NCBI GenBank assembly: GCA_009838845.1
Contig: VXRD01000168.1
Location: 1 to 42,626 of the forward strand
Direction of reading: 5' to 3'
Length of the DNA: 42,626 nt
From: Gemmatimonadota bacterium
GTDB lineage: Bacteria > Latescibacterota > UBA2968
Of the stretch, positions 12,430 to 41,600 are shown piece by piece. Positions within the stretch are counted from its first letter, which is position 1; each line of letters opens with the position of its first letter. The notes beneath the pieces are model-generated. The model worked only from the letters and a program-made list of their open reading frames with translations, had not been told where the DNA came from and made no database searches. A program made the position numbers and the translations under genes.

Positions 12430-12444
12430 TTCATTCTCCCTTGC

Positions 12445-12485
12445 TCAAATTGGGCCAGCCACCCATCTTACCGCCTTTTCCACCA
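12445..12485 (-). pseudogene. 3'-terminal scar of a BPL_N-type gene
   Basis: Bases 12455-12485 match 16837-16867, inside the 3' end of the intact BPL_N gene, at 30 of 31 positions (single difference at 12461). Read on the minus strand in the matching frame, the scar encodes LVEKAVRWVAGPI and then stops at 12445-12447; the intact protein has MVEKAVRWAAGRQ. Everything upstream of the homologous stretch is missing, because the PhyH-3 stop codon lies at 12498-12500. The simplest reading is that a BPL_N-sulfatase pair existed here and a PhyH cassette replaced most of the BPL_N gene. A 17-codon frame starting at 12498 overlaps the PhyH-3 stop but is probably not a gene. Confidence 0.6.
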
Positions 12486-12497
12486 GATAGATATTCA

Positions 12498-13382
12498 TCA
12501 ACCATGATTCACCTGCGTCTCGGAAGGCTCCGGTTCATCCTCTGCTTCGAGCAATTCCGCAATGCTTTGGCGCCCGCTGTAATAGGGCGGCTCGATAAGG
12601 GCACGGTGGAGTGGTGAAAGTTCATCTGCGAAGGACTCATATTCGTCCGGCTCATACTTTCTTCCATAGGCCATACATGCCGGAATATAGCGGTAAAGAA
12701 GCGTGCGTCGCTCGTGTGAAGCCTTCCAGGGCAGGGCACCGTGCATCAGTGCTTCGGTGAAGATAATCGCAGATCCCGCCCTGACCGGAATATGACGTAC
12801 GTTATCCATCGCGGCTTCCAGGCGACGGATTTCTCTTGGACAGGAATAGTTGGACTTATGGCTTCCTGGAAGGCACGCAAATCCGCCATCACCCGGATTT
12901 ACATCGGCGAGCTGATAGCACACTGCTGTGAGACCATTCCACATCCTGCCATCCTGAAACCGGTAGAAGGAGTGATGCCGCATGGGGGCCCCGCCTCCGT
13001 GGAAGACGTGGCCTTCATTGCCTGCCGTCATCGTAATTCCATTGGCATTCGAATACCGAAAATCATCACCCAGAAAGTCAACCATATAGCGCAGAATCCC
13101 GGGATGAATCAGCAAGTCCCGAAACGGCTCGCACCACGGCTTCGGCCAGTTCAGAAAACCCTTCATATCCCCTCGACCGTGTTCGCCAGCCAGGGCGTCC
13201 GAGGCCTTCCCGCCGTGACGGTCAGCCGCTCCGGACAGACTGTCATGATTGCGAATGCGGATATACTCGCGATTGTGATCGATCGCTTCGTTCATCGCAT
13301 GCACCTGTTCGGGCGTCAGCACATCTTCCACGACCAGATAGCCATTCAGATCGAACAGGTACTTTTCCTGATCTGTCATCAT
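12498..13382 (-). CDS. PhyH-like protein 3, with HxG in place of HxD
   Basis: A 294-residue PhyH-fold protein. The proximal iron motif reads FHGGGAP: His128 is kept, but Gly130 stands where the Asp ligand is expected. PGSHK (172-176), distal His214 (LMHGALPW) and the 2-oxoglutarate Arg (225/226) are present, so the fold and co-substrate site look intact. The segment between holds NPGDGGF instead of the usual acidic-Asn-Gly. Loss of the carboxylate ligand is characteristic of Fe/2-oxoglutarate halogenases, but other explanations exist. GGAGAT precedes the start ATG; a second ATG follows immediately. It is the third consecutive HxG PhyH gene in the operon (PhyH-5, -4, -3) and most resembles PhyH-7. 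Confidence 0.9.
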   Translation of the reverse strand: MMTDQEKYLFDLNGYLVVEDVLTPEQVHAMNEAIDHNREYIRIRNHDSLSGAADRHGGKASDALAGEHGRGDMKGFLNWPKPWCEPFRDLLIHPGILRYMVDFLGDDFRYSNANGITMTAGNEGHVFHGGGAPMRHHSFYRFQDGRMWNGLTAVCYQLADVNPGDGGFACLPGSHKSNYSCPREIRRLEAAMDNVRHIPVRAGSAIIFTEALMHGALPWKASHERRTLLYRYIPACMAYGRKYEPDEYESFADELSPLHRALIEPPYYSGRQSIAELLEAEDEPEPSETQVNHG

Positions 13383-13436: not shown

Positions 13437-14297
13437 TCAAAACGATACAGGCGCTAAATGACCAGCATCCATCTGCGTAACCGGTGGTTTTGAAGGCTCA
13501 ATCGGACGAATAATCTTTCGCCGTGCAGGCGTTAATCTCGCCACCAACTCATCGGAGTATTCATACCCCAAACGATCTCGGGTCCAAAAAGACGAATACC
13601 GATAAATCAATGCGCGGCGCTCCCCTTCATTGGTCCTCACGCTGGCACCGTGAATAAGGGCATCTGTAAACACCACGGCATCTCCCGCCTTGAGATGCAC
13701 CTCCTTGAGAAGGGGAGCCATATCACCAGGCTCGAGAACATAATCCTTCCTGCCCTGCCTTTTCTGATGCACCAGCGGATTTGGAATATTGGACTTATGG
13801 GACCCGGGAACGACCAGTGTCCCACCATCCCCTGGACCAATATCATTCAGTGCCAGGAGAATGTTCAAATTGCCACAGAAAAATTTATTGTCGTGATATT
13901 CAAAACTCGTGCGATACATCTTATTGTGACCGCCAGCATGCAACCTCACATGGCTCCCTTGATGGATGATCGGAAGAAAATTCATCCAAATATGCAAACC
14001 GTGGTTATCCACGTACCGCTTGACAAACTCGATCCAGTTGGGATTATCGATCAACGCCTCAAAACACGAACCCCCTTCGATAACATTCCTGAAACTCACA
14101 CTGTGACTATTGGTATTTTCATTCTTCACAACATGAACATTGCCCAACCATTCCTCACCAGCGTCGCTCAAAACAAGCCATTCATCAACCTTCTCATTGA
14201 TCTCGGCAATGAGTTCTGGCTGCACAGCATTCTTTAAAATGAGAAAACCCTCAAGATCAAATCGATAATCATCCCATTCATTCGGTGTCGATATCAT
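13437..14297 (-). CDS. PhyH-like protein 4, with HxG in place of HxD
   Basis: A 286-residue PhyH-fold protein, clearly paralogous to the adjacent PhyH-5 over its full length (both start near TP-EW-DY-FDL and share PELIAEIN, RYVDN, GPGDGGT and VPGSHK). The proximal motif is RLHAGGHNK: His120 and Gly122 instead of His-x-Asp. Distal His216 (LIHGASVRTN) and an Arg pair (227/228) are present. The key residues sit at exactly the same numbers as in PhyH-5, showing a tandem duplication. AAGAAGGGATGG upstream of the ATG provides a ribosome-binding site. Its activity may be oxygenation, halogenation or neither; substrate unknown. Confidence 0.91.
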   Translation of the reverse strand: MISTPNEWDDYRFDLEGFLILKNAVQPELIAEINEKVDEWLVLSDAGEEWLGNVHVVKNENTNSHSVSFRNVIEGGSCFEALIDNPNWIEFVKRYVDNHGLHIWMNFLPIIHQGSHVRLHAGGHNKMYRTSFEYHDNKFFCGNLNILLALNDIGPGDGGTLVVPGSHKSNIPNPLVHQKRQGRKDYVLEPGDMAPLLKEVHLKAGDAVVFTDALIHGASVRTNEGERRALIYRYSSFWTRDRLGYEYSDELVARLTPARRKIIRPIEPSKPPVTQMDAGHLAPVSF

Positions 14298-14318: not shown

Positions 14319-15155
14319 TCATGCAGTCACAGATTGAACAGGCGGTCTTATCGGCACAACGGGCCGCACAATTTTTCTGCGCTCGGGTGTAAGCCTGGCG
14401 AGCAATTCTTCTGACGGCTCAAAACCAGTAGCATTTTTCATCCAAAATGCAGTATATCGATAGATCAGTATCCTGCGCTCGCCGTCATTGGTCCGCACAC
14501 TGGCACCGTGTGTACAGGCATCGGTAAAAATAACAGCGTCGCCTGCATTGAGGTGCATTTCCTTTAAATAGGGCGTCAGTTTCGTCTGCTCAACCACATT
14601 CTTATGTCGCCCATTCTCCTGCTCAAAAACCAGAGGATTAACCACATTGCATTTATGCGATCCAGGCACAATCATAGTACCGCCATCTCCTGGACCAATA
14701 TCGTTCAGCGCGAGCAAAACATTGAAATTGCCACAATAGAAATTATCGTTATGATAGCGAAAACTGGTGCGATAACTCTTGTTGTGCCCGCCAGAATGAA
14801 CAGGTACATAGCTGCCTTTCCGACTGACAGACAAATGGTTAGCCCAGATGTATAACCCATCATTATCGACATAGCGCTTCACGTACTCGAGCCAGTTGGA
14901 ATTATCGATCAACGCCTCAAAAGCTGGTCCACCCTCAATAATATTGGCAAACTTGATATCGGGGCCCTTTACGGGTTCGGGATCGCTACCGCGAACATGG
15001 CCGATCCATTTGTGTCCAGCCTCGTGTAAACGAACCCAGTGATCGACCGTCTCATTAATCTCCGCAATCAACTCTGGAGAAACAACATCCTTCAGAACGA
15101 GATATCCTTGGAGATCAAAAAGATAGTCCTCCCATTCAGTAGGTGTAGAAGTCAT
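14319..15155 (-). CDS. PhyH-like protein 5, with HxG in place of HxD
   Basis: A 278-residue paralogue of PhyH-4. The proximal motif is PVHSGGHNK (His120, Gly122), with distal His216 (CTHGASVRTN) and Arg pair 227/228. The start at 15155 follows AAAGGAGAAGAT; a longer frame to 15218 has no such site and would add a non-conserved leader. The two tandem copies differ in the loop after the first 50 residues, where substrate contacts are often found, suggesting different substrates. Upstream (15156-15408) is a 253-base gap containing a gene-tail scar, so this gene begins a block PhyH-5/-4/-3 that may have moved as a unit. Confidence 0.91.
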   Translation of the reverse strand: MTSTPTEWEDYLFDLQGYLVLKDVVSPELIAEINETVDHWVRLHEAGHKWIGHVRGSDPEPVKGPDIKFANIIEGGPAFEALIDNSNWLEYVKRYVDNDGLYIWANHLSVSRKGSYVPVHSGGHNKSYRTSFRYHNDNFYCGNFNVLLALNDIGPGDGGTMIVPGSHKCNVVNPLVFEQENGRHKNVVEQTKLTPYLKEMHLNAGDAVIFTDACTHGASVRTNDGERRILIYRYTAFWMKNATGFEPSEELLARLTPERRKIVRPVVPIRPPVQSVTA

Positions 15156-15293
15156 ATCTTCTCCTTTCGCCGCAAACTCACATGAAACACTGAAGCCCCC
15201 AGCGTGCCCAGATCCCAACCGAAACCACTGAGGGCAATTGTACTGCTGTAACGACTCCTATGTCGCTTCAAATCGTGCCATACAATTTCCCTA

Positions 15294-15368
15294 TTATTCA
15301 CAGTACAGCTTCGCCACGGCAATCGCATCCTCTTCCCAACAGGTATAAAACAAATACAACTGACCATC
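15294..15368 (-). pseudogene. 3'-terminal scar of the propeller glycosidase-like gene
   Basis: Bases 15313-15368 match 20289-20344 at 55 of 56 positions (difference at 15339 versus 20315). In the intact gene this segment encodes the C-terminal DGQLYLFYTCWEEDAIAVAK. Here the same frame continues LYCE and stops at 15294-15296. Upstream, homology ends abruptly at the Asp codon, and that frame meets a stop codon within about 15 further codons. It is therefore a truncated tail left between sulfatase 4 and PhyH-5. The near-identity implies a recent event or gene conversion. An 86-codon frame (15152-15412) crossing the same bases in another frame is an artefact. Confidence 0.65.
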
Positions 15369-15408
15369 AAAATATTCGGCTTTTTCACATAGGATTCCTT
15401 AATCTCTT

Positions 15409-16812
15409 TCATTGTTGCGCAACAGTGCGTTCGTACTCCATATCATAATACGGATTGGGTTCGTTGGGAATAATGGCTTTTGTATCGCGTTGCCAATTTT
15501 TGAGATCCTTCAAAAGTTCAGCGGCTTTTTCGGTGTGACGTGTGGCAAGGTCATTTTTTTCACCAATATCACGAGCAATATTGTAAAGTTCCACACTCCC
15601 GGTATCAAATCGCTCAATCAGTTTCCAATCGCCTTTGCGGATGGCTCCCGAAGGCACAGTACGCCAACCCGTACCTCGACCCGCGCGACCACCCCGCAAG
15701 GGCGTGATATTTTGGCAATCAGATCCTCCAAGATACAGAGGAAAGTGCCAGTACAGGGTATCGCGTTTAAGGGATGTTGCGCCAGAAAAGAGAGGAACCA
15801 GACTTTCACCATCAACAGGTTGGTGCTCAGGAAGTGTACCAGAGGTGACTTCAGTTAGGGTAGGCATAAAGTCGATACCGTAGATCGGCACATCGCATGT
15901 TGTGCCCGCAGGAATGACACCAGGCCAACGCATGCAGGTAGATACGCGGATACCGCCTTCGTAAAGCGCGCCTTTGCCACCGCGTAACGGATCCATATTG
16001 GTGTATTTGGCTATGCCACCATGATCGGCTGAGAAGATGACAAGCGTGTTGTCTGCAAGGCAGAGATCGTCAAGCGTTTGCATCACGCGACCCACGCTTT
16101 CATCAACGCTTTCAACCATAGCCCCATAAGGCGGGTTGGGATGCTCGGCTTTCTCGTAGGCGGCAATTTTATCAGCTTTGGCTAAAATGGGGGCATGCAG
16201 TGCCCAGTGGGCGAGATAAAGAAAAAAAGGGCCATCCCGATTGTCTTGAATAAATTGAACAGCTTCGTCGGTGAGCCGATCTGTGAGATACTCACCTTCG
16301 GGACCATCGCGCATAGCAGGATTTTTATAAGGACTAAAATGGCGTCCCATGCGCTGGTGACCACCAACGTTGTGATCAAAGCCTTTAGATATGGGTCCCG
16401 CTTCAGGATCATTGCCAAGCTGCCATTTGCCGATAGCACCACAAGTGTATCCCGTAGATTTGAGCACTTGCGGTATGCAAGTGACATCGGGCTTGAGGGC
16501 TATTGGATGATTAGAAGGAAAGTGTTCTAAATCGGCATCGCGAGCAGGCGTTATCAATTTCATCAGACGAACATCGCCTTTAGATGCACCACCAGGTGTA
16601 TAGATCTCATGACGCGGTGTGTACATGCCCGACATAATACTGGCACGGGAAGGTGCGCAATTAGGTCCACAAGAATACGTCTGCGGAAAAATCATGCCAC
16701 CGTGAGCAAGGCGATCAATATTCGGCGTCTCATGCGTCTTACAACCCAGAAAGCCAACATCGCGCCATCCCATGTCTGATATGATGATAAAGACGATATT
16801 AGGCGATGTCAT
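15409..16812 (-). CDS. Type I sulfatase 4
   Basis: A 467-residue sulfatase. It has the N-terminal metal motif IIISDMGWRDVG (one Asp of the usual pair is Met), the formylglycine motif CAPSRASIMSGMY (Cys52), and a second metal site FSADHGG near residue 240. The start codon overlaps the stop of the BPL_N gene in an ATGA arrangement, indicating translational coupling. No signal peptide. The replacement in the first metal motif (S-D-M rather than T-D-D) is also found in active sulfatases, so inactivity should not be assumed. Downstream lies the propeller-gene scar and then PhyH-5. Confidence 0.93.
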   Translation of the reverse strand: MTSPNIVFIIISDMGWRDVGFLGCKTHETPNIDRLAHGGMIFPQTYSCGPNCAPSRASIMSGMYTPRHEIYTPGGASKGDVRLMKLITPARDADLEHFPSNHPIALKPDVTCIPQVLKSTGYTCGAIGKWQLGNDPEAGPISKGFDHNVGGHQRMGRHFSPYKNPAMRDGPEGEYLTDRLTDEAVQFIQDNRDGPFFLYLAHWALHAPILAKADKIAAYEKAEHPNPPYGAMVESVDESVGRVMQTLDDLCLADNTLVIFSADHGGIAKYTNMDPLRGGKGALYEGGIRVSTCMRWPGVIPAGTTCDVPIYGIDFMPTLTEVTSGTLPEHQPVDGESLVPLFSGATSLKRDTLYWHFPLYLGGSDCQNITPLRGGRAGRGTGWRTVPSGAIRKGDWKLIERFDTGSVELYNIARDIGEKNDLATRHTEKAAELLKDLKNWQRDTKAIIPNEPNPYYDMEYERTVAQQ

Positions 16813-17543
16813 ACGGATCTCCTTATAAGCTGCCTACCAGCCGCCCATCTTACCGCCTTTTCCACCATATAACCCAGTGAATCTGTCTTTTCGGGGTGTG
16901 CACTAAAACAAAACACACGGCCTTTTTCAAACTGCGTGCGGACAATAGCTGAAGTGCCTGGCATAACGCCTTCAGGCGCACCTTTTTTTGCGATCTCAGT
17001 GCGGTATAGAGCAAGACTTTCGTAATCGGGGACGAATGGATCATCCAATTCGCGGCGTCCCAGCAGTGGTCCCTGACCATAGAAAATCTGAAGGGTTTTC
17101 TCCTCAATCCCAAAAAACGCCTGGGCAGCCGAAGACAATTCAATCGTCACAATGCCAGTGCCTCGCGCCCAGTGTTCTCGGTCTATCACCATTGCATCTA
17201 TCAAGTCGAGAGACCACGGGTAGTCATTGGTCGCAAGATAGGCTCCGGCACAGATCCCGATAAAACCGCCTCCCTCTTTTACAAATTCCCGCACCGCTTC
17301 TCGTCCCTTTGATTCCAGGGCACGCCCCTGCTTTCCTCCGCTACCACCGGGTTGGATGAGAACATCTACCTCCGAGAGCCCACCCTGACGAATTGCCAGA
17401 GCGTCCATCCTGACGATCTCGAAAACCGGCTTTCCCTTTGCCTTGCCGAGAACATCGAGAAGATCCACGCGACTTGGACCTGCGCCTTCGCCCTCATATA
17501 CAGCGATCCGAATACGGGTATTTTTTATTTTCTTTTCACTCAT
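16809..17543 (-). CDS. BPL_N-type class I glutamine amidotransferase-like protein
   Basis: A 244-residue protein of the biotin-protein-ligase N-terminal (BPL_N) type, a flavodoxin-like class I amidotransferase fold. The catalytic triad pattern is visible: Cys98 in GGGFIGICAGAY, and His216 and Glu218 in CFSAHPEKT. No biotin ligase domain follows, so it is a stand-alone form whose reaction is unknown. The ATG at 17543 is preferred; a TTG six codons upstream has no better site. The stop codon overlaps the sulfatase 4 start (ATGA). A scar of the same gene type also precedes sulfatase 3, suggesting a lasting functional pairing of this protein with sulfatases. Confidence 0.85.
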   Translation of the reverse strand: MSEKKIKNTRIRIAVYEGEGAGPSRVDLLDVLGKAKGKPVFEIVRMDALAIRQGGLSEVDVLIQPGGSGGKQGRALESKGREAVREFVKEGGGFIGICAGAYLATNDYPWSLDLIDAMVIDREHWARGTGIVTIELSSAAQAFFGIEEKTLQIFYGQGPLLGRRELDDPFVPDYESLALYRTEIAKKGAPEGVMPGTSAIVRTQFEKGRVFCFSAHPEKTDSLGYMVEKAVRWAAGRQLIRRSV

Positions 17544-17656
17544 GTTGAGTGATCTCGGCAACTGTGTGTTAGAGGCTGTCGCATCGGGGTGGTGCCACTT
17601 TCAGTCCTTGAAATCGGGATGACAAATAAGCACGCGCCATAGCTTTGATTCTGTTT

Positions 17657-20077
17657 TCACTCCTGCCTCAGCGTCTCAACCGGGTTCCTGCATGCGGCTT
17701 TCCAAGCCTGAAAACTCGCCGTACTCAAAGCGATAGACATGACGGCGATAGTGCCTAATGCAAATGGCCACAACTCTACATCGATACGATAGGCGAATCT
17801 CTGAAGCCAGTGATTGATAATATAATAAGCAAAAGGCCAGGCGATGAAATTGGCGAGGAAGACGGGTTTGAGAAAGTCTTTGGACAGCAGTATGACAACG
17901 CTGGATATAGGCGCACCCAGAACCTTTCGAATGCCGATTTCTCTGGTGCGCTGTTGAGTTGAAAAGGAGATAAGGCCAAACAAACCTAGGCAACCCACAA
18001 AAATAGCGAGTCCAAAAAAAATGGAAAAGATAAGCCCTTGACGTTTTTCAGCACGGTATTGATGAGCGAAATCTTCATCGAGAAAAAAGTAGTCAAAAGG
18101 CTTGTCAGGGATCAATTTTGCCCACGTTGTTTTTAATTTCGTCAAGGTATTCAACAAGCCATCAGAACGGACTTTGACAGTGAAATACGAAAAATGGCTG
18201 GGGTCAAAATAAAACAGATAAGGTTCTATCGGATTGTGCAAAGACACATAGTGGAAATTTTTCACAACGCCAATCAAGTGCCTATTGGATCTGGTGTTGA
18301 AAGTTTTGCCAAGTGCTTCTTCAGGTGTGCCCCATTCAAAATAGGCGACGGCTTTTTCATTGAGTAGAAAGGCTGTGTTTTGATCCGTTTCGATGTCGCG
18401 TGAAAATCCTCTGCCCGATATCAAGGTTAGCCCTAGCGTTTCGAGATAATCTTCATCAATGCTCTGTATGCGAATGCCCTTCAGGACTTCCTCGCCCGAT
18501 GACATTCTGACACGGATGTTCCGAAAGTTGAAGAAACGCCCTGGGACAGTCGCCGATGTGGAGACAGTTAGAACATTGGGAAGTTTTGTGAATTCGGCTT
18601 TAATGGTTGTGTAACGCTGCAGAACATCCGGATCCTTCTTGAAATTAATTACCACAACATGATCTTTGTCAAAACCGAGGGTTTGAGACTGCATATAGTT
18701 GATTTGCGTGTACACAGCGGTGGTGACAATCAGGAGTGTAATCGAAATGATAAATTGGAAGGTCACAAGTCCTTTCCGAATCCATATTCCTTTCTGTCCC
18801 GACTTGAGACTGCCTTTCAAGACCTCGACGGGTTTAAAACTGGAAAGTACAAATGCAGGATAGCTACCTGAAAATACGCCGACCCCCAGAGCGATCCCAA
18901 TTAAGCTAAGAAAGAGAGGAGGATTCTGGAAAATATCCAGCGTCAAATTCTGCTCCGCCAGGTCGTTCAGAAATGGAAGGCTGAGCGCAATGAGCACGAC
19001 AGACAGACAGATCGTTGCAGCAGTCATCAGGAGCGCCTCGCCCAAAAATTGTGCGATTAATTGTCCTCGATAGGCACCCACGACCTTTCGCATTCCCACT
19101 TCTCGTGCGCGATCAACAGCACGCGCCGTGGCCAGATTCACAAAATTAATACACGCAATCAACAGAATCAGAAAGGCAATCGCCAGAGACCCATAAATGT
19201 ATACGATGTCGCTCTGGGGGGCGATATTGTGAATCACATTCGAATAGAGATAAATGTCCTTTAAGGGTTGAAGGTGGTGTACAAATCGAATTTTAAACTG
19301 TTCTTCATCGGCTGCGCCGTATTGTTGAGTAATCCCTTGAATTTGGGCCTCCATCTCATCGTAAGAGGCCGATTCGTGGAGTAAAATATAGGTATGCCAG
19401 CCCAAATTTGGCCACCGCATCCATCGCTCCATAAACGACGCCTGCGTATGGTTAAGGGTTTCAAACGAGATCAGAAAATCAAACGTAAAGTGGGAGTTCT
19501 GAGGTATAGGAGCCAGGATGCCGGTGACTATAAACTGAAGCGTATCCTGAACCGTCAGAATCTGATTCATAGGATCTGTGTCTCCGAAATATTTCTGGCT
19601 CACCGCTTCTGTTAACACGATAGAAAAGGGCTCTTTCAGGGCTGTTTCAGAATCTCCTTGAATAAGTGGAAAAGAAAAAACCTTGAATATAGATGCATCT
19701 GCCACAAAGCCATGAGGCTCATAGGCACTTACCTTCTCGCTTCTTATAAATAGGTCGTTTCCATTAACGGCCTGTACATCATGGAAACGCACAGCCTGTT
19801 CAACAGCAGGATAATTTTGCAACAGAGTGGGTGCGAGTAGCCCAGATGTGGTTCCATAATAACCTGTAGGACTGCTGGCGTAGTGCCATTCGAGCGTCGC
19901 TCGATAAATCCGGTCGACATTGGCATGGTAGGCATCATAGCTCAATTCATATCGAACAAACAGGAGAATTGCCAGGCTACAGGCAATGCCAATTGTCAAC
20001 CCCAATACGTTGATGGTAGAGTAAGCTTTATGTCGGAGTAGATTTCTGATGGCAACGGTCAAATAACTCCTAAACAT
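17657..20077 (-). CDS. ABC transporter permease, double FtsX/MacB type
   Basis: An 806-residue inner-membrane permease: one N-terminal transmembrane helix (about 20-42), a MacB-like periplasmic domain, three helices with an FtsX domain (about 275-420), another helix (about 430), a second periplasmic domain, and a final three-helix FtsX domain with TREIGIRKVLGA near residue 705. Such two-module permeases are common in Bacteroidetes and allied groups and act with a separate MacB/LolD-type ATPase in lipoprotein or peptide export or mechanotransmission. No ATPase is encoded next to it. AAAGGAAAA precedes the ATG at 20077; an upstream in-frame start is rejected. It is the least obviously catabolic gene of the island and may be an insertion. 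Confidence 0.92.
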   Translation of the reverse strand: MFRSYLTVAIRNLLRHKAYSTINVLGLTIGIACSLAILLFVRYELSYDAYHANVDRIYRATLEWHYASSPTGYYGTTSGLLAPTLLQNYPAVEQAVRFHDVQAVNGNDLFIRSEKVSAYEPHGFVADASIFKVFSFPLIQGDSETALKEPFSIVLTEAVSQKYFGDTDPMNQILTVQDTLQFIVTGILAPIPQNSHFTFDFLISFETLNHTQASFMERWMRWPNLGWHTYILLHESASYDEMEAQIQGITQQYGAADEEQFKIRFVHHLQPLKDIYLYSNVIHNIAPQSDIVYIYGSLAIAFLILLIACINFVNLATARAVDRAREVGMRKVVGAYRGQLIAQFLGEALLMTAATICLSVVLIALSLPFLNDLAEQNLTLDIFQNPPLFLSLIGIALGVGVFSGSYPAFVLSSFKPVEVLKGSLKSGQKGIWIRKGLVTFQFIISITLLIVTTAVYTQINYMQSQTLGFDKDHVVVINFKKDPDVLQRYTTIKAEFTKLPNVLTVSTSATVPGRFFNFRNIRVRMSSGEEVLKGIRIQSIDEDYLETLGLTLISGRGFSRDIETDQNTAFLLNEKAVAYFEWGTPEEALGKTFNTRSNRHLIGVVKNFHYVSLHNPIEPYLFYFDPSHFSYFTVKVRSDGLLNTLTKLKTTWAKLIPDKPFDYFFLDEDFAHQYRAEKRQGLIFSIFFGLAIFVGCLGLFGLISFSTQQRTREIGIRKVLGAPISSVVILLSKDFLKPVFLANFIAWPFAYYIINHWLQRFAYRIDVELWPFALGTIAVMSIALSTASFQAWKAACRNPVETLRQE

Positions 20078-20146
20078 AATTGTTTTCCTTTGATGGGCGA
20101 AGATCGGCAATAAGAGCGTAAGTTTTTCCTGAGTTTGACATCTACA

Positions 20147-20251
20147 TCAAGCCTTTTTAGTTATTCGGTCGTTTTTCCTTTTTTTCTTTTTTTTTGGAAC
20201 GGGCTGAACACCGTCAACGGGAAAAAGCGTTACTTGTTGAGATTGGTTCAT
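20147..20251 (-). CDS. Small basic protein, 34 residues, unknown function
   Basis: A short frame, too small for most gene callers, with a near-ideal GGAGGAATTAA immediately before its ATG. The product begins MNQSQQVTLFPVDGVQPVP and ends in a strongly basic tail (five Lys in a row, then RK and KK). It begins 15 bases after the stop of the propeller glycosidase-like gene and lies before the FtsX permease gene, so it is probably in the same transcript. I do not recognise the family. The strong ribosome-binding site is the main evidence; the poly-A run encoding the Lys tract could be fortuitous. Confidence 0.45.
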   Translation of the reverse strand: MNQSQQVTLFPVDGVQPVPKKKKKRKNDRITKKA

Positions 20252-20266
20252 TTAATTCCTCCAAAT

Positions 20267-21352
20267 TCATTGTACCTTATTTAGTTTTGCCACGGCAATC
20301 GCATCCTCTTCCCAGCAGGTATAAAACAAATACAACTGACCATCTTCTTTGAACGCATAAGAATCGTGCACCACATCGCCTTCCCAATCCTCCTCGGCGC
20401 GAATCATCTCTTCGGGGGGATAACTCGTCTGCCACGCCTGCCAATCGCCCGCGCTCAAATCCACAGTCGAACGCATAATATATTCCGGCTCCTCCCATTT
20501 TCGGCTGTAAAACACCTCCAGCGTCTCACCATCCTCCATCACCCGCACACATCCGTGGCGCAATCCCAAACCCCCATTGGGAAGATGATCGCCCGCCAAC
20601 CCATCGGCGACGAGATCATCCTCAATAGGCGACGATTCAGCGGACACCCACAGAGGATCGCTCGTATTCCAACCCACTGGCGCATCCCACGGACATTCGG
20701 GAACAGCCGGCTTCAAAAAAAATCCGCGCTGTGCAAAACCGTACCAATCGCCATGATAGGTAAACACGCGCAAATAATTTCGATCCGCAAATTTCAACCG
20801 CTTCAATCCATGGCCTTCTTCCCCACCTACTTCAGGACGGTTAAAATTCAACCCGTATTTCGACGTCGCCACAAATGAACGCTGGCCATCATTGCTGCTC
20901 CCGTGAACCACCATAATAAAATGCCGATTATCCTCATCCACAACCACCTCGGGAGACGACACATGCCCCTTCAACACAATACCATCCACCACATCAATCG
21001 TCTCAGTCTCATTGCCCAGCCGCAAATCAAAAACCCCGCGCCCTGGAAAACGCGGATCATCCAACCGACCGGCATTAAAAATCGTCCACTCTGCCAAATC
21101 CACCCGATCTGACCACGCCATGTGAATACTCGTCCCGTGATGCGACGCAAAATAGAGATAGTAATTCGCATCCGGATGTGCCCGATCTTCCGCAGGCACC
21201 CAATCGGGAATCCGCACCACCGTGGGAAACATCGCGTCGCCGCGCAATCTCGGCCGGTTGGGATCTGCCCCAATCCTGAGCCGCCGCATATCACTTCCAT
21301 CGACAATCGGCCTGCCGTGCAATTTCTCAACCCGATAAGTCACTTCACCCAT
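20267..21352 (-). CDS. Beta-propeller glycoside-hydrolase-like protein, family unassigned
   Basis: A 361-residue protein with repeated blade-like motifs typical of five-bladed propeller glycosidases (GH32/43/117 and relatives): NYYLYFASHHGTSIHMAWS, SSPEVVVDEDNRHFIMVVHG, LEVFYSRKW and DGQLYLFYTCW. I cannot assign the catalytic acids with certainty. Start: GGAGGAG lies directly before the ATG at 21352; the frame could begin four codons earlier, but that ATG would contain the site itself. The gene begins right after PhyH-6. A near-identical copy of its last ~56 bases is found at 15313-15368. No signal peptide. Role inferred: hydrolysis or binding of an oligosaccharide imported by the cell. Confidence 0.82.
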   Translation of the reverse strand: MGEVTYRVEKLHGRPIVDGSDMRRLRIGADPNRPRLRGDAMFPTVVRIPDWVPAEDRAHPDANYYLYFASHHGTSIHMAWSDRVDLAEWTIFNAGRLDDPRFPGRGVFDLRLGNETETIDVVDGIVLKGHVSSPEVVVDEDNRHFIMVVHGSSNDGQRSFVATSKYGLNFNRPEVGGEEGHGLKRLKFADRNYLRVFTYHGDWYGFAQRGFFLKPAVPECPWDAPVGWNTSDPLWVSAESSPIEDDLVADGLAGDHLPNGGLGLRHGCVRVMEDGETLEVFYSRKWEEPEYIMRSTVDLSAGDWQAWQTSYPPEEMIRAEEDWEGDVVHDSYAFKEDGQLYLFYTCWEEDAIAVAKLNKVQ

Positions 21353-21366
21353 ACACTCCTCCATAT

Positions 21367-30581: not shown

Positions 30582-30720
30582 ATAGACGAATAGACGAATC
30601 CCGCCCAACCACCCAGAGCATGTGCTGACATGATATAAGCCAGTATTGTTACAAACTCCGTCGCTGATTCGCTGATTCGTAGATTCGCTGATTCGTAGAT
30701 TCGCTGATTCGCTGATTCGT
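30571..30720. repeat. Two complementary octamer arrays between exbD and the ECF sigma gene
   Basis: Bases 30571-30599 carry about 3.5 copies of an 8-base unit (GAATAGAC or GAATAGAT). Bases 30661-30720 carry about 7.5 copies of TTCGCTGA or TTCGTAGA. Both have period 8, and the CGAAT core of the first array is complementary to ATTCG of the second, so the transcript could fold into a stem of five-pair helices separated by small internal loops, around a ~61-base loop. The second array ends 15 bases before the sigma factor ATG. It could be an attenuator, an mRNA stability element or a slippage-prone microsatellite. Confidence 0.6.
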
Positions 30721-30735
30721 TGCGAGGTCGGAACA

Positions 30736-32295: not shown

Positions 32296-34005
32296 ATGAT
32301 GCAAAAAATAGCCAAACACCGATGGTTCGTGCTGCTTTTTCTCGCGCTCTTTGCCTGCGGTGAAGAAGCACAACAGACACAGGGCGGACGTGCTGGACGC
32401 GGTGGACGCGGTGGACGCGGTGGCGGCGCTGCTGCGCCCGTCAAGGTCGAGACTGTAAAACAAGGGGATATTTCTGCATATATCCTCAAAAACACAACAC
32501 TCGAAGCCGAAAGATGGGTTGACGTTCGAGCGCGCAGAGCCGGGCAGGTCATCTCGCTACTAAAAGAAGAAGGCGACCCCGTACGCGAGGGCACCGTAAT
32601 GGCGCGGCTCGACGCCGACGCTGCCCAGATCAGCGTCGCGCAGCGAGAAGTTGCCTATCTTGAAGCCAAACAGCGGTATGAACGCGAAGATGCCCTATTT
32701 CAACGCAATCTGGGTAGCAAACAGTCTTATGAAAATGCCAAGACCCAATTCGAATCGGCCAAAGCACAACTCGAACAGGCCAAACTCGATTTGAGCTACA
32801 CGGCGATTAGATCGCCTATTGAAGGCATCATGACGCTGAGAAATATCGAAGTGGGCAACATGGTCACCAACAATCAAGTGGTGGCCTCTGTAGCCAAATT
32901 TGATCCCCTGCTTGCGCGCATCCAGGTAACGGAAAAGGACTTTGGTAAAATCACCGTAGGACAGACTGCGCGCATTACTGTTGAAGCCGCGCCTGAAAAA
33001 GAATTTACGGGCACAGTGAAAATGATCAGTCCCGTGGTAGATCCCGAAAGCGGCACGGTCAAAGTAACCGTCGAGATACCTCGAACAGATGCAAGTCTGC
33101 TGCGTCCCGGGATGTTTGCCTCGGTCTATATTATCACTGAAACGCGAATAAACACCCTGGTCATTCCCAAAAAAGCCCTCGTACTCGAAGGAGAAGGCAA
33201 CCAGGTATTCACCTTTGAAACCGATCCCGAAAGTGGTCGCGGGCAGGCGCAACGCAAACGCATCGAAATCGGCTTTACAGACAGCGACCGTTTAGAGATC
33301 CTCTCGGGCCTTTCCCAGGGAGAGCAGGTCATTACTGTGGGACAGGAGGGTTTGAGACCAGGTTCACCCGTGCGCCTCGTAGGAGAAGCCGCACCTCCCG
33401 CATTTGCCGGACGCGGTGGACAGGGCAGGCAAGGACGTGGGCAAATGGGTCAGGGAGGACAGGGCAGGCAGGGACGCGGACAGATGGGTGAAGGTGGACA
33501 AGGGCGCGCTGGACGTGGGCAAATGAGTGAAGGTGGACAGGGCAGACAGGGACGTGGTCGTGGTGGAAGTGGCCAAATGGGTGAAGGTGGACAAGGCAGA
33601 GGATTTGCAGGTGGCGAGGGGCAGGGCAGACAGGGGCGCGCTGGACGTGGACAGATGGGTGAAGGTGGACAGGGTAGGGGCTTTGCAGGTGGCGAGGGAC
33701 AAGGACGTGGGCGCGGGCAGATGGGTCAGGGAGGACAACGAGGTGGCGAGGGGCAGGGCAGACAGGGACGTGGACAGATGGGACAAGGCGGACAGGGCAG
33801 AGGTTTTGCAGGCGGGCAAGGCGGAGGTGATCCCACAGACCGCATAAAACGCATAATTGAGCGCTTCCCCGAAGTCAAAGCCGAATACGAAAAGCGCGTG
33901 AAAGACGATCCCGAACTCGCAACAAATATGGAAAAACTCCGCGCTTTTGTGACTGAGATGCGAGAAAAAGGATTGATACCATCACGAGGCGGACGAGGTA
34001 ATTAA
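32296..34005 (+). CDS. RND efflux periplasmic adaptor (lipoprotein) with Gly-Arg-Gln repeat tail
   Basis: A 569-residue membrane-fusion protein. A lipoprotein signal ends at Cys21 (LFAC); next comes a short Gly-Arg tract (about 29-46), then the lipoyl and helical-hairpin region (about 75-180), the beta-barrel, and a membrane-proximal domain to about 365. The core is a typical MFP. Unusual is the tail, about residues 372-512, made of repeats such as GQGRQGRGQMGQGG and GRGFAGGEG, followed by a charged helical end (514-560). The tail is encoded by tandem DNA repeats. It should deliver substrate from the RND permease encoded next to an outer-membrane channel, which is not present here. Confidence 0.92.
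   Translation: MMQKIAKHRWFVLLFLALFACGEEAQQTQGGRAGRGGRGGRGGGAAAPVKVETVKQGDISAYILKNTTLEAERWVDVRARRAGQVISLLKEEGDPVREGTVMARLDADAAQISVAQREVAYLEAKQRYEREDALFQRNLGSKQSYENAKTQFESAKAQLEQAKLDLSYTAIRSPIEGIMTLRNIEVGNMVTNNQVVASVAKFDPLLARIQVTEKDFGKITVGQTARITVEAAPEKEFTGTVKMISPVVDPESGTVKVTVEIPRTDASLLRPGMFASVYIITETRINTLVIPKKALVLEGEGNQVFTFETDPESGRGQAQRKRIEIGFTDSDRLEILSGLSQGEQVITVGQEGLRPGSPVRLVGEAAPPAFAGRGGQGRQGRGQMGQGGQGRQGRGQMGEGGQGRAGRGQMSEGGQGRQGRGRGGSGQMGEGGQGRGFAGGEGQGRQGRAGRGQMGEGGQGRGFAGGEGQGRGRGQMGQGGQRGGEGQGRQGRGQMGQGGQGRGFAGGQGGGDPTDRIKRIIERFPEVKAEYEKRVKDDPELATNMEKLRAFVTEMREKGLIPSRGGRGN
33409..33832 (+). repeat. Tandem imperfect repeats encoding the Gly-Arg-Gln tail
   Basis: About 424 bases of imperfect repeats built on GGACAGGGCAGG, GACGTGGGCAAATGGG and GGTGAAGGTGGACA. 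They keep reading frame throughout, so the repeat is maintained as protein. Larger units (QGRGFAGGEG) recur at about 33595, 33673 and 33798. Long minus-strand frames over the same bases (rich in Ser, Thr and Leu) are by-products of the repeat. Confidence 0.85.
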
Positions 34006-34010
34006 AACTC

Positions 34011-37000
34011 ATGAAACTCATTGAATTTTCGACCCGGCGACGGGTAACAGTAACGATGTTTGTGGCTGCGGCAGTGCTATTTGGCATGGTCGCTTTTCAG
34101 CGCCTATCGATCAACCTGCTGCCCGATATCACCTATCCCACCCTGACGGTGCGCACAGAATACGAAGGCACAGCACCCTCGGAGATGGAACGTTTAATCA
34201 CCGAGCCGATTGAGGGATCTGTAGGTGTGGTAAACGGAGTTATCCGGGTAACATCGGCCTCGCGCCCCGGCATATCGGATGTGGTTGTGGAATTTGCCTG
34301 GGGTACGGACATGGATTTTGCTTCTCTCGATGTTCGGGAAAAGCTCGATCAGGTACGCCTGCCACAGGACGTGAGAAAACCCGTACTGCTGAGGTTTGAC
34401 CCTTCGCTGGACCCGATCATGCGTATCGGACTCTACGGCGAAGAAAGTTTGATTTCGCTACGCCTCCTGGCCGAAGAAGAAATTAAGCCCGAGTTGGAAA
34501 GCCTCGAAGGGGTCGCATCTGTGCGCGTCAATGGCGGCCTGGAAGAAGAAATTCAAGTTGAGATTGACCAGCCCAAACTGGCTGCATTGCGCATTCCTCT
34601 ATCTCAGGTCGTCAATCGCTTAGCCCAGGAAAATGTGAACCTGACGGGCGGAGAACTCAAAGATGGCGAAGCAGAATACCTGGTTCGCACATTCAACGAA
34701 TTTAAAACAATAGAAGAAATTCAGGATATTGTGGTGGGCCAGCGGCAGGGCACCATTATCACATTAGCCGATGTGGGGCTGGTGACCCGAGGGCATCGCG
34801 AACGCACGGTAATTACGCGCATTGATCAGCAAGAAAGTGTCGAACTGGCCATATACAAAGAGGGTGATGCCAATACTGTAACAGTTGCACAAGCCGTTAA
34901 AGAAGCCATCGCGCAATTTCGCCGCACATCCGGCGATTTGCTCGGTAATTCGCGCATGGAGGTCGTCTCGGATCAATCGACATTCATTCGAGACTCGGTC
35001 TCCGAGGTCCTCAACACCGCTATTTTGGGCGGTTTTTTGGCCATTATCGTTCTCTATCTGTTTTTGCAAAGCCCCAAAAGCACGGGCATCATCAGCGTAT
35101 CTATTCCCATTTCGGTTGTTGCGACATTTTTCCTCATGTACGCATCGGATGTGAGTCTCAACATCATGTCATTGGGTGGACTCGCCCTGGGAATAGGCAT
35201 GCTGGTTGACAACTCAATTGTCGTACTCGAAAGTGTACAGCGTTACCAGGAAAGCGGCATGAGTCCGCGTGAAGCGACCAATAAAGGGGGGTCGGAAGTG
35301 GGACAAGCTGTCGTGGCTTCTACAATGACGACAATATGCGTCTTTGTCCCCATTGTTTTTGTAGAAGGCATTGCCGGACAGCTCTTCCGAGATCAGGCAC
35401 TTACCGTGACCTATTCGCTCGTCGCCTCCCTCCTCGTTGCCCTCACGGTCATTCCCATGCTGGCTTCGTTAGAATTTTCATGGATCGGTGAATTTGCCGC
35501 CGTAGAAAAACGCAAAAAGGAAAGCGGACACAAAGGCGGTGTCGAAGCTCCGGCTCGTATTGCGGGGTTGCTGGGCACAGTTGTAGGATGGATTGGACGC
35601 GGTATTCTGGCCTGTCTTGCACCCTTATTCTGGATTTTCGACAGAGTGATTGGACGCGCTTATCTCGTCTATCCGCACATTATCAGATGGGCACTCAGAC
35701 ATCGCCTGTATGTGATTGGGTTGGCAATTGCCCTTTTGGGTGGCACCTGGACACTTGGCTCGAGATTGGGCAGTGAACTGATCCCCGAAATGAGCCAGGG
35801 AGCATTCTCAATTGCAGTCGAAATGCCGCTGGGCACACCCCTTGCCGCCACAACCCAAACCATTCAAGCCATTGAGAGGCTTGTTCGCAGTCAACCCGAA
35901 GTGCGCCTGGTTTACAGCATTGTCGGTACACAATCGGCATCTGGGGGCAGCGGCGGAGAAGAAAGGGAAAATGTGGGTGAGGTCAATGTCGTACTCCACG
36001 AGGGCATTATTCGAGATCGCGAAATTGCCGTAATGGATCGCTTGCGCCAGATGATTGTAGAAATTCCCGCCGTGGATACAAAATTTGCCCGCCCATCGCT
36101 ATTCTCGTCTCGCACGCCAATCGAAGTGGAAGTCGCCGGTTATAATTTGCTGTCGCTACAGATGATCGCCGGAGAAATGATGGCGCGCATGCAAACCATT
36201 ACGGGACTGACAGATATTAAAACAACAAGCGAGGGCGGTACACCCGAAGTGCAAATTCGGTTTGACCGCAAGCGCGTGGCGCAAATGGGCACGACGATTA
36301 ACGCCATTGGCGAGATTATCCGCAATCAGGTTCAAGGAGAGGTTGCCACACAATTTACCCGAGGAGATCGGAGAGTCGATATTCGCGTCCGCGCCGAAGA
36401 GGAACATCGAAGCACAGTAGATGATCTGAGGCGATTGATCATCAGCCCCAACAATGCCCCATCGCCGGTGCCTTTGAGTGTAGTCGCCGATTTACAGGTG
36501 GAAATGGGACCTGCTGAAATTCGCAGAATTGACCAGGAGCGCGTGGCATTGATCTCGGCCAACCTGGTGGGTCGAAGTCTGAGTGCTGTCGTCGCAGACC
36601 TCGAACGCGAAATTGATCAGATGGAGTTGCCCGCCGATTTTTCGATTAAAGTGGGTGGGCAAAATGAAGAGCAACAGCGGTCATTTGAAAGTATGCAATT
36701 GGCGATTGGGTTGGCGATTTTTCTCGTTTATCTGGTGATGGCATCGCAGTTTGAATCGCTCGTTCATCCTTTTGTAATCATGTTTGCCATACCTTTTGCG
36801 CTGGTAGGCGTTTTTGCTCTGCTCCTCATAACCGGGCAGACCATCAGTGTGGTCGTGCTCATTGGTTTGATTATGTTGGCTGGCATTGTCGTCAACAATG
36901 CCATCGTGCTCATCGATTATATCAACACGCTCCGAAGAGATGAGGGCATGCCCAAAATGGAAGCGATTGCACAAGGGGGCAGAGTGCGCCTGCGTCCCAT

Positions 37001-37286
37001 TTTGATGACCACCTCGACGACTGTGCTCGGTTTGTTGCCCATGGCACTGGGCATTTTCAATTTTCAGCCCCTTGTCAAAAGCATCGAAGGCGCGTTGGAT
37101 GGCGTGTTATCCGGGCAGGTATTCACCGCGGTCATGGCTGTGGTGGGTATGCTTTTCCCGGTAGGGCAGGGTGCAGAGATACGCGCGCCTATGGCCATTA
37201 CCGTTATTGGCGGCCTGGTCGTATCAACACTGGTAACCCTGGTACTGATCCCAACGCTGTATTCGCTAACCGACCGCAAGGAGTAG
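34011..37286 (+). CDS. RND-family efflux permease (AcrB/HAE1-like)
   Basis: A 1091-residue inner-membrane proton-driven transporter. An N-terminal helix (about 10-30) is followed by porter loops, a helix cluster (about 335-480) with GLALGIGMLVDNSIVVLE, whose Asp belongs to the proton relay, a second porter half, and a C-terminal cluster (about 900-1085) with IMLAGIVVNNAIVLIDYIN and GRVRLRPILMTTSTTVLG. It is slightly longer than the usual 1020-1060 residues, with an insertion near 500-550 and another before the last helix. GAGGTAATT ribosome site. It is paired with the preceding adaptor. Substrate (drug, lipid or metabolite) cannot be inferred. Confidence 0.95.
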   Translation: MKLIEFSTRRRVTVTMFVAAAVLFGMVAFQRLSINLLPDITYPTLTVRTEYEGTAPSEMERLITEPIEGSVGVVNGVIRVTSASRPGISDVVVEFAWGTDMDFASLDVREKLDQVRLPQDVRKPVLLRFDPSLDPIMRIGLYGEESLISLRLLAEEEIKPELESLEGVASVRVNGGLEEEIQVEIDQPKLAALRIPLSQVVNRLAQENVNLTGGELKDGEAEYLVRTFNEFKTIEEIQDIVVGQRQGTIITLADVGLVTRGHRERTVITRIDQQESVELAIYKEGDANTVTVAQAVKEAIAQFRRTSGDLLGNSRMEVVSDQSTFIRDSVSEVLNTAILGGFLAIIVLYLFLQSPKSTGIISVSIPISVVATFFLMYASDVSLNIMSLGGLALGIGMLVDNSIVVLESVQRYQESGMSPREATNKGGSEVGQAVVASTMTTICVFVPIVFVEGIAGQLFRDQALTVTYSLVASLLVALTVIPMLASLEFSWIGEFAAVEKRKKESGHKGGVEAPARIAGLLGTVVGWIGRGILACLAPLFWIFDRVIGRAYLVYPHIIRWALRHRLYVIGLAIALLGGTWTLGSRLGSELIPEMSQGAFSIAVEMPLGTPLAATTQTIQAIERLVRSQPEVRLVYSIVGTQSASGGSGGEERENVGEVNVVLHEGIIRDREIAVMDRLRQMIVEIPAVDTKFARPSLFSSRTPIEVEVAGYNLLSLQMIAGEMMARMQTITGLTDIKTTSEGGTPEVQIRFDRKRVAQMGTTINAIGEIIRNQVQGEVATQFTRGDRRVDIRVRAEEEHRSTVDDLRRLIISPNNAPSPVPLSVVADLQVEMGPAEIRRIDQERVALISANLVGRSLSAVVADLEREIDQMELPADFSIKVGGQNEEQQRSFESMQLAIGLAIFLVYLVMASQFESLVHPFVIMFAIPFALVGVFALLLITGQTISVVVLIGLIMLAGIVVNNAIVLIDYINTLRRDEGMPKMEAIAQGGRVRLRPILMTTSTTVLGLLPMALGIFNFQPLVKSIEGALDGVLSGQVFTAVMAVVGMLFPVGQGAEIRAPMAITVIGGLVVSTLVTLVLIPTLYSLTDRKE

Positions 37287-38628: not shown

Positions 38629-38658
38629 TCATCAGTAATGGGCAATGAGGAGATTATT

Positions 38659-41600
38659 ATGAAGCACTGGTGGACGCGCCGACTACAACTCGGCCTTTTG
38701 GGGATTGCGATAATTTTAATAGCCATGTGGGGATGCGGACGCGAACGCGTAAATCCGGTTGACTCACAATTTGAAGGAACCACGACGACTTTGAATCCGC
38801 CGGGCAATATTCGCGCCCAGGGCGGTATTGGACGGATCACTTTGAACTGGAATCCCGTGAACAGCACAAATCTTGCGGGATATGGGATATGGCGGTCAAC
38901 ATCGGCCACGGGAGACTTCGTGCTATTGCGCGGCGAATCATCCGCTCCCGACGTGACGACAGCACGCACGACTTATGTGGATTCGACAATAGATGCCAAT
39001 GTATCGAAAATATACTTTTATAAACTCAGCACCGTAGATGTAGAAGGACAATCGAGCGAATTATCTACATTTGTAAGTGCAGAAGTCCTCGATGACACGC
39101 GCGCACCGGCCATGCCAATGAATTTCGTCGCCATCACCGATGCCGATGGAAAACAGGTTGCACTGGGCTGGTCAGCGCCGGAAATGGATGTGGGCAATCA
39201 GGAATTGACCGGCTTGTCCGGGTACAGAATTTTCAGGATCAAAGATTCGCAGGGCAAACTCCAGATACAGGGTTCGCAGGCAGCGCTGGTCCAACTCGCC
39301 ACAGAACTGGGCATCGACCTCGATAATCTGGGAGAAATATCCGCCGAGTTGAAAGATATTTTCGTCGAACTTGGAACCGTACCTGCCAACCAGACTTATT
39401 TCCTCGATACCGATGAACTCGAAGCTGGCGTGCTTCACGTTTACATAGTCATCGCCGTCGATCCAGAAGGCAACACTGGACCTCCGGCACTTACTTTAGT
39501 AACCATAGACACACCAGGCGCGAATATACCAGTACCTGCTAACTTGCGCGCAACGCAAAATGAACAGGCGCGCATTGTCGTATCCTGGAATCCCGTAAAC
39601 GATCCCAACTTGCTGGGCTATCTGGTCTTACGGTCACAATCCACACAAGGTCCCTTTACACCCGTAACAAACGACACGCTCTTTACCACGGGACAGACGA
39701 CCTATGTCGATTCGCTTGTCGCGACCGATCAAGTGTACTACTACAAAATTCAAACCGTTGTGCAAGATCCCAATCTTGGACTATTGCGCAGTGATACTTC
39801 CACTTTCATCGACGGACAGGCACTTGCCGATCAGAGCGCCCCTGGCGCGCCCTCAGATCTCATCGTCAGCCTGGACGATGATAATTTCCAGCGGGTGATG
39901 CTGAACTGGACTGCACCTGTAACAGACAGAAATGGCAATGAACTGACCGGATTGGCCTCCTTTGAAATCTACCGGTCGCGCGAGAACAATACATCCTTTG
40001 CACTGATCGCCACAGTATCGAGCGATCAGGTGAGTTTTGTGGATACTTCTGTCGAATTACTCACGACGTATTTCTATGCGGTCAGAGCATTGGATCAGGC
40101 TGGCAATGCCGGACCCCGGTCTCAGCCGATATCTGTGACCACCAGGGGATTTGCTATCCCGCGCAACGTGCGGGCAACTCCTGGTGTGCAGAAAATCACC
40201 TTGACCTGGACGGCAAACACCGAGCCTGAATTAACGGGATATGAGATATTGCGCTTTACAGATCCCACACACGAAACACCCGACAAAACCTTCTCTTCTG
40301 TGTTGACGACGTATGTGGATACTCCTGTCACAGCAGATCAACCCTTTGTCTATCGGGTGCGGGCGGTTGGCACCGCCAATGTGAAGAGCGAATTGTCGCC
40401 CCCCGTCTCTGCCCAGGCCACGGAAGCTGCTCCAGTTCTGGCAGCACCGCGCAATGTGCAGGCAAGGGGTGGGATTGGTCACATTACCATCACCTGGGCG
40501 GCAAACACCGAGCCTGAACTGACCGGGTATCGCGTCATGCGCTATACAGACCCGGCACAGACAGCAGCCGAAGCGACCTTCGCGACAGTGCAGACGACTT
40601 ATGTCGATTCGCCGCTGGTATCGGGACAGACCTATGTCTATCGCGTACAGGCGGTTGGTACCAATAACGAAGAAAGCGAACAATCGCTCTATGCCTCCGC
40701 AACCGTCTCAGCCGATCAGAGCCCTCCCGGCGCACCCTCGGATCTCATCGCCAGCCTGGATGAGGCGAATTTCCAACGCGTGCTCATCAGCTGGACGGCT
40801 CCCACAAGAGACAGCAATGGCAATGAACTGACCGGATTGACCTCCTTTGAAATCTACCGGTCACGCGAGAACAATACATCCTTTGCGCTGATCGCCGCAG
40901 TATCGAGCAATCAAATGAGTTATGAGGACACATCTGTCGAGTTATTGACGCGATACTTTTATGCAGTCAGAGCATTGGATCAGGCCGGCAATGCCGGACC
41001 CCGATCTCAGCCAGTATCTGTGACCACCAAAGGATTTGCCATCCCGCGCAACGTGCAGGCGACTGGTGGTGAGCTGAAAATCACCTTGAACTGGGCGGCA
41101 AACACCGAGCCTGAATTGACTGGATACGAAATCTTGCGCTTTACAGATCCCACAGATGCAACACCTGACAGGATCTTCTCTTCTGTGTTGACGACGTATG
41201 TGGATACCCCTGTCACAGCCGGACAGACCTTTGTCTATCGAGTGCGTGCGGTTGGTCCCTCCAATATAAAGAGCGATCTATCTGCCTTTGTCTCTGCACA
41301 GGCCGTCGAGCCGCCTCCAGTTCTGGCAGCACCGCGCAATGTACGCGCGACTGGTGGTGAGTTGAAAATCACCTTGACCTGGACGGCAAACACCGAGCCA
41401 GAATTAACGGGATACGAGATCTTGCGCTTTACAGATCCCGCAGATGCAACACCTGACAGGATCTTCTCTTCTGTGTTGACGACGTATGTAGATACCCCTG
41501 TCACAGCCGGACAACCCTTTATCTATCGGGTGCGGGCAGTTGGTGCCGCCAATGTGAAGAGCGAACTATCGGTCTTTGTCTCTGCACAGGCCACCGAGCC

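Follow-up and report, generated by a model that had tools for sequence, protein, structure and literature searches.

A displaced glycosidase-like gene end points to a probable block insertion in the PhyH/sulfatase island of a Latescibacterota genome

In the PhyH/sulfatase island of the genome studied here (one draft MAG, designated G000, which is the basis of this analysis), the end of a glycosidase-like gene, GLYC, occurs twice: once in the gene itself and once as a fragment lying between a sulfatase gene (sulf4) and PhyH-5. How did a gene end come to be situated there, and which of its neighbours has moved? A preliminary description took PhyH-5, PhyH-4 and PhyH-3 to be a mobile or recombining cassette, flanked on both sides by gene tails from elsewhere in the island. 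The data presented below argue instead, with a probability that we put at roughly 0.7, for the insertion of a block of approximately 4.9 kb just upstream of the native GLYC end in the G000 lineage, the source being a divergent haplotype of the same island. The window referred to throughout is the whole stretch of DNA analysed, 42,626 nucleotides in length.

A repeat search of the window revealed that positions 15307-15368 and 20283-20344 are identical at 59 of 62 bases, with mismatches at 15309, 15312 and 15339 and a longest common exact run of 29 nt. The match of 55 out of 56 bases reported earlier for 15313-15368 is thus confirmed, as part of a slightly longer repeat. Read on the minus strand, the fragment codes for the final 23 aligned residues of the GLYC protein; it is indeed, as first described, the tail of the glycosidase gene. 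When it was compared with the genome, the sole significant match was the GLYC end (E=6e-22; next best, E=1.0), so that the repeat cannot be ascribed to chance. It had been suggested that further copies might coincide with cassette borders, but no third copy was found in the whole 5.75-Mb genome. A conserved small element independent of the gene was also considered, and was ruled out: in every relative this sequence forms the coding end of GLYC.

Gene order was compared among 14 genomes of the family, ten of which (G005 to G014) belong to the same genus as G000; the locus is carried by nine of the ten, G005-G013. The features of the window that have counterparts in the relatives, together with PhyH-3, are as follows.

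12441-12489, minus strand: native 3′ end of a BPL_N gene before sulfatase 3 (the 'BPL_N scar'), 94% identical to the BPL_N-sulf3 junction of G008 and 90% to that of G009
12498-13382, minus strand: PhyH-3, specific to G000, in the place held by BPL_N in relatives
13437-14297, minus strand: PhyH-4, in its ancestral position
14319-15155, minus strand: PhyH-5, next to the native GLYC end, as in the ancestral order
15195-15306, minus strand: native spacer between GLYC and PhyH5, which takes in the final GLYC codons (LYCE*), matching G010 at 111 of 112 bases
15307-15368, minus strand: displaced native GLYC 3′ end, matching the GLYC 3′ ends of G010 and G011 at 62 of 62 bases
20267-21364, minus strand: GLYC, glycosidase-like gene, intact, with 92-96% protein identity to nine same-genus orthologues

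The GLYC ORF comprises 365 aa, with an ATG at 21364 or 21352; its orthologue in G005 is split. Sequence comparisons of GLYC with Pfam, NCBIfam and solved structures yielded no significant match. The AlphaFold model (mean pLDDT 71.6, pTM 0.82) was found by Foldseek to resemble GH43/GH62 propeller glycosidases (probability 1.00, TM about 0.4-0.5). This was the sole informative comparison, and 'propeller glycosidase' is a fair label for the predicted protein at the level of fold.

The matches of the fragment and the adjoining spacer to G010 and G011 identify the fragment as the ancestral GLYC end, still adjoining PhyH-5: what might pass for a stray scrap is in fact the original sequence. The second copy, at 20283-20344, agrees with the GLYC end of G010 and G011 at only 59 of 62 bases, and the sequence beyond it is unrelated to those genomes, matching instead the GLYC-methyltransferase junction of G014. 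The earlier statement that the near-identity of the copies means a young or homogenised tail does not follow. Eight relatives compared in pairs are 97.3% identical at the GLYC end, which ranks in the top ~2% when the gene is divided into 56-nt blocks, and because it is so highly conserved the similarity of the copies gives no date for the event. A value of 59/62 is within the between-species range, as for two haplotypes from different species.

It is apparent that the uninterrupted arrangement prevails in the genus. GLYC is followed directly by PhyH-5 in all nine genomes, and then by PhyH-4 wherever the contig continues. Reading the minus strand in the direction of transcription, the order in G011 is PhyH1-PhyH2-GLYC-PhyH5-PhyH4-BPL_N-sulf4-sulf3; that of G010 is the same, with PhyH5 and PhyH4 matching only in part, and that of G008 is PhyH1-PhyH2-GLYC-PhyH5-PhyH4-BPL_N-sulf3. 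In the window the order is PhyH1-PhyH2-GLYC-(methyltransferase remnant)-MacB-BPL_N-sulf4-(sulfX start)-(GLYC end)-PhyH5-PhyH4-PhyH3-(BPL_N end)-sulf3. A tree of a conserved gene of the window (34011-37286), rooted with G014 and G001 as outgroups, placed G000 with G010, G011 and G006 (support 94), nested within the genus; in a rooted GLYC tree G000 was likewise nested, with G011, G010 and G012 (support 91). The uninterrupted order is therefore ancestral and the interrupted state of G000 is derived.

These results bear on two other accounts of the locus. Direct repeats of such length can support deletion, and the interrupted order might in principle be the ancestral one, recombination between the repeats having removed the block from the nine relatives. 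This is extremely improbable: given the nested position of G000, several identical and precise losses would be needed, no basal member of the genus carrying the block was present among the 14 family genomes, and a truncated fragment fused to another truncated gene is a derived structure. The second account is that of the preliminary description, in which the PhyH trio landed as a mobile cassette between the tails. There are gene ends on both sides of the trio, and PhyH-3 itself is G000-specific, but nine relatives have PhyH-5 and PhyH-4 in this same place adjoining the GLYC end and the tails are native neighbours rather than imports, so that this account is almost certainly incorrect. The tails do mark junctions, as had been noted; it is the MacB/BPL_N/sulf4 block, and not the trio, that came in.

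The components of the putative inserted block, and the joint at its right-hand end, are listed here.

about 15369-20282, minus strand: inserted block (methyltransferase remnant, MacB, BPL_N-like gene, sulf4, sulfX start), for which nine relatives have no counterpart at this site
15360-15371, minus strand: right-hand joint between the sulfX start and the GLYC tail, GATGGTCAG on the coding strand, from alignment of both parental sequences
15363-15412, minus strand: sulfX start, the first ~48 nt of another sulfatase gene (MKEIKESYVKKPNIL...), cut at the junction
15409-16812, minus strand: sulfatase 4 (sulf4), Pfam PF00884, E=4.7e-55
16809-17561, minus strand: BPL_N/ThuA-like gene, Pfam PF09825, E=6.8e-16, with orthologues after PhyH4 in G008-G011
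17657-20110, minus strand: MacB/FtsX-type permease gene, Pfam MacB_PCD and FtsX
20095-20264, minus strand: 5′-end remnant of an N6/N4 DNA-methyltransferase gene, matching the start of the G014 methyltransferase directly after G014 GLYC
20283-20344, minus strand: second GLYC-end copy, part of the inserted block, matching the native end at 59 of 62 bases

All genes of the ~4.9-kb block have the same orientation. The recognised genes between 15369 and 20282 are those for the sulfatase, the BPL_N-like protein and MacB/FtsX, the rest being remnant and spacer; no integrase or transposase was found there, in agreement with the original remark that no transposase is visible. A scan of the block for promoters and terminators gave counts near the shuffled expectation. 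As a separate observation, the 77-nt intergenic stretch from MacB to BPL_N (17566-17642) has copies of 78-82% identity in G008:C28 and G002:C70, in unrelated surroundings.

The left end of the block has a history of its own adjoining GLYC, as the GLYC-methyltransferase junction of G014 aligns with the second copy and with 170 nt beyond it. The homologous G014 gene belongs to Pfam PF01555, the remnant in G000 comprises 170 nt, and elsewhere in the genus a close gene was found in G014 only. The adjacency of GLYC and methyltransferase would accordingly be older than the insertion and would belong to another haplotype. The G014 methyltransferase after GLYC is interrupted by what we take, from its sequence, to be an IS1595/ISXO2-type element. 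This element (L070/L071, G014:C1, about 949500-950800) has inverted ends, and its transposase ORF appears to contain an internal stop.

The remainder of the block is of mixed affinity. Among the 14 family genomes no close relative of the MacB gene was found, only short within-gene matches of at most ~78%, and queries with the MacB segment and the sulf4-BPL_N segment identified no donor of the whole block. The sulf4 gene is 95% identical to the sulf4 that follows PhyH4/BPL_N in G010 and G011. Since the BPL_N-sulf4 segment as a whole is ~95% identical to those genomes, a value equal to that for the rest of the locus, these could be the lineage's own genes, relocated.

At the right-hand end, the sulfX start overlaps the sulf4 stop (ATGA) and is broken off after ~15 codons, at KPNIL, where the GLYC tail begins at GATGGTCAG. 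It is 86% identical to the sulfX starts of G006 and G009 and 84% to that of G000:C128. With the sulfX alleles of relatives standing in for the parent, microhomology of 0-9 nt at this joint is possible. In the fused ORF (15152-15412) the GLYC tail is out of frame, and the ORF probably has no function. The fragment thus has the sharp edges originally described, but with different causes: on the PhyH-5 side it continues into the native GLYC spacer, and on the sulfatase side it meets a truncated sulfatase start. An intact sulfX was not found in G000, and the gene is complete in G006 only. A second sulf4 copy (95%) is present in G000 (L074, G000:C128, 3239-4780), situated after a 93-nt PhyH-4 tail; it ends in the same truncated sulfX start, a few bases from the break point in the window, and from about 4784 it is followed by an element of ~40 nt that is repeated in G005, G007 and G012.

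Alignment with G008 and G009 shows the BPL_N scar to be the place at which the BPL_N gene originally ended. Shorter pieces of this end occur in G006 and G007, after their own losses of BPL_N. In the place that BPL_N holds in relatives is PhyH-3, for which no close match was found in the family (best, 67%). In other species the PhyH4-sulf3 interval (L067, L069, L072, L059/L060; G006, G007, G005, G013) contains different single genes (BPL_N, sulf4, sulfX or another sulfatase), with gene-end remnants at the joints.

Downstream of the scar lies sulf3, as in G008, and downstream of the inserted BPL_N lies sulf4, as in G010 and G011. These different contexts argue for two haplotypes rather than for one recent tandem duplication. 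In such a duplication, within one genome, the segment from the GLYC end through PhyH5, PhyH4, BPL_N and sulf4 to the sulfX start would have been doubled across microhomology, after which PhyH5-PhyH4 in copy 1 was replaced by MacB and BPL_N-sulf4 in copy 2 by PhyH-3. Both tails and the retention of BPL_N-sulf4 in the G010/G011 order would be accounted for, and the type of junction suits a duplication breakpoint. We nevertheless consider it unlikely, as two further replacement events are required, a search of the block for remnants of PhyH5 and PhyH4 found none, and both pairs of tails diverge at the between-species level (3/62 and 2/35). Nor would a local duplication predict a GLYC-methyltransferase junction in common with the distant G014.

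A chimeric assembly of related strains co-occurring in the metagenome must also be weighed, the genome being a draft with a contamination estimate of 3.1%. The longest exact stretch between the copies, however, falls short of the k-mers with which assemblies are usually finished. A chimera would require three distinct composite junctions whose divergence is typical of the genome, and the block includes genes that were not found in the relatives. An artefact of this kind is very unlikely.

The preferred explanation, a single crossover that integrated a fragment of a divergent haplotype, is one that we infer in preference to linear joining and to tandem duplication. The two ends of the block, sulfX and GLYC, would have been joined at a short microhomology to form a circle, which would then have integrated by one crossover within the ~60-bp GLYC end. 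Alternatively, a linear molecule could have recombined with GLYC through homology at one of its ends and been joined illegitimately at the other end. In either case the block would have brought its own GLYC end, leaving GLYC as an intact ORF with a substitute end, and the intact gene does have LNKVQ at its C-terminus in place of LYCE. As would be left by a single crossover, direct repeats (15307-15368 and 20283-20344) flank the block, their homology extends over 62 bp, and the crossover point could be anywhere within those 62 bp. The recipient DNA at the junction is complete, fragment and spacer alike, so that there is duplication and no deletion. Hallmarks of transposition were not observed: the window has no inverted repeats of 30 nt or more, a Pfam search found no transposase domain, and transposon target duplications are usually much shorter than the 62 nt repeated here. 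Nor is there recurrent use of the site, as by a site-specific element, the nine relatives having an uninterrupted GLYC end followed by PhyH-5.

Comparable events are known from other systems. In E. coli, integration of a re-circularised fragment by single crossing-over left the target gene partly duplicated around foreign DNA (PMC3240628). The homologous end of the target gene is likewise duplicated here and flanks foreign DNA, but 109-950 bp were duplicated in that laboratory conjugation assay, compared with ~60 bp here, in a natural event deduced from its outcome (PMC3240628). In homology-facilitated illegitimate recombination, described in S. pneumoniae, Acinetobacter baylyi and Pseudomonas stutzeri, one end is homologous, the other is joined at a short microhomology (3-10 bp in those species) and a recombinase gene is unnecessary, as may be so here; it usually deletes recipient DNA, whereas here there is duplication without visible loss at the junction (PMC3240628). 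Displacement of gene ends has been reported for the type VI effector clusters of Vibrio cholerae and for rhs 3′ regions, in which, as here, an incoming module exchanges the 3′ end and the old end is pushed downstream as an orphan tail (PMC5361080). The displaced end in the present PhyH/sulfatase island differs in being a 62-bp scrap that has neither immunity nor toxin function.

Integrative elements that attach at gene 3′ ends are likewise bordered by short direct repeats of that end and restore the gene, but the block described here has no integrase and its site is not recurrent in relatives. A search of the literature on Latescibacterota/sponge sulfatase islands and on PhyH in sponge symbionts found nothing on this locus among the papers listed.

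Other repeats were noted elsewhere in the window. A large ORF of 1295 aa (38638-42525) has internal repeats at a 288-nt spacing, with copies from 38943 to 41785. The gene at 32296-34005 contains a Gly/Gln-rich coding repeat in units of ~39 nt (33415-33827), and its matched length varies among relatives. An intergenic array of 8-nt repeats (TCGCTGAT/TCGTAGAT) is present at 30653-30730.

Gene-end scars were seen in G000, G006, G007, G010, G011 and G000:C128, and the accessory genes concerned are BPL_N, sulf4, sulfX, a further sulfatase, PhyH-3 and MacB. It is tempting to suppose, although we regard the idea as doubtful, that the island repeatedly swaps single accessory genes at or near ORF boundaries across the genus, leaving such scars, as if a recombinase-free process favoured the gene boundaries of operons.

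The states before and after a gene acquisition can both be read from this locus, in an uncultured lineage and with no mobile-element gene involved. The displaced end is an ordinary yet well-preserved trace of bacterial recombination, and it shows that a duplicated gene tail can pass for the border of a mobile cassette as long as the original gene order has not been worked out. Should the scars at gene boundaries prove general in the genus, the way in which these bacteria exchange genes could be tested directly from genomes.
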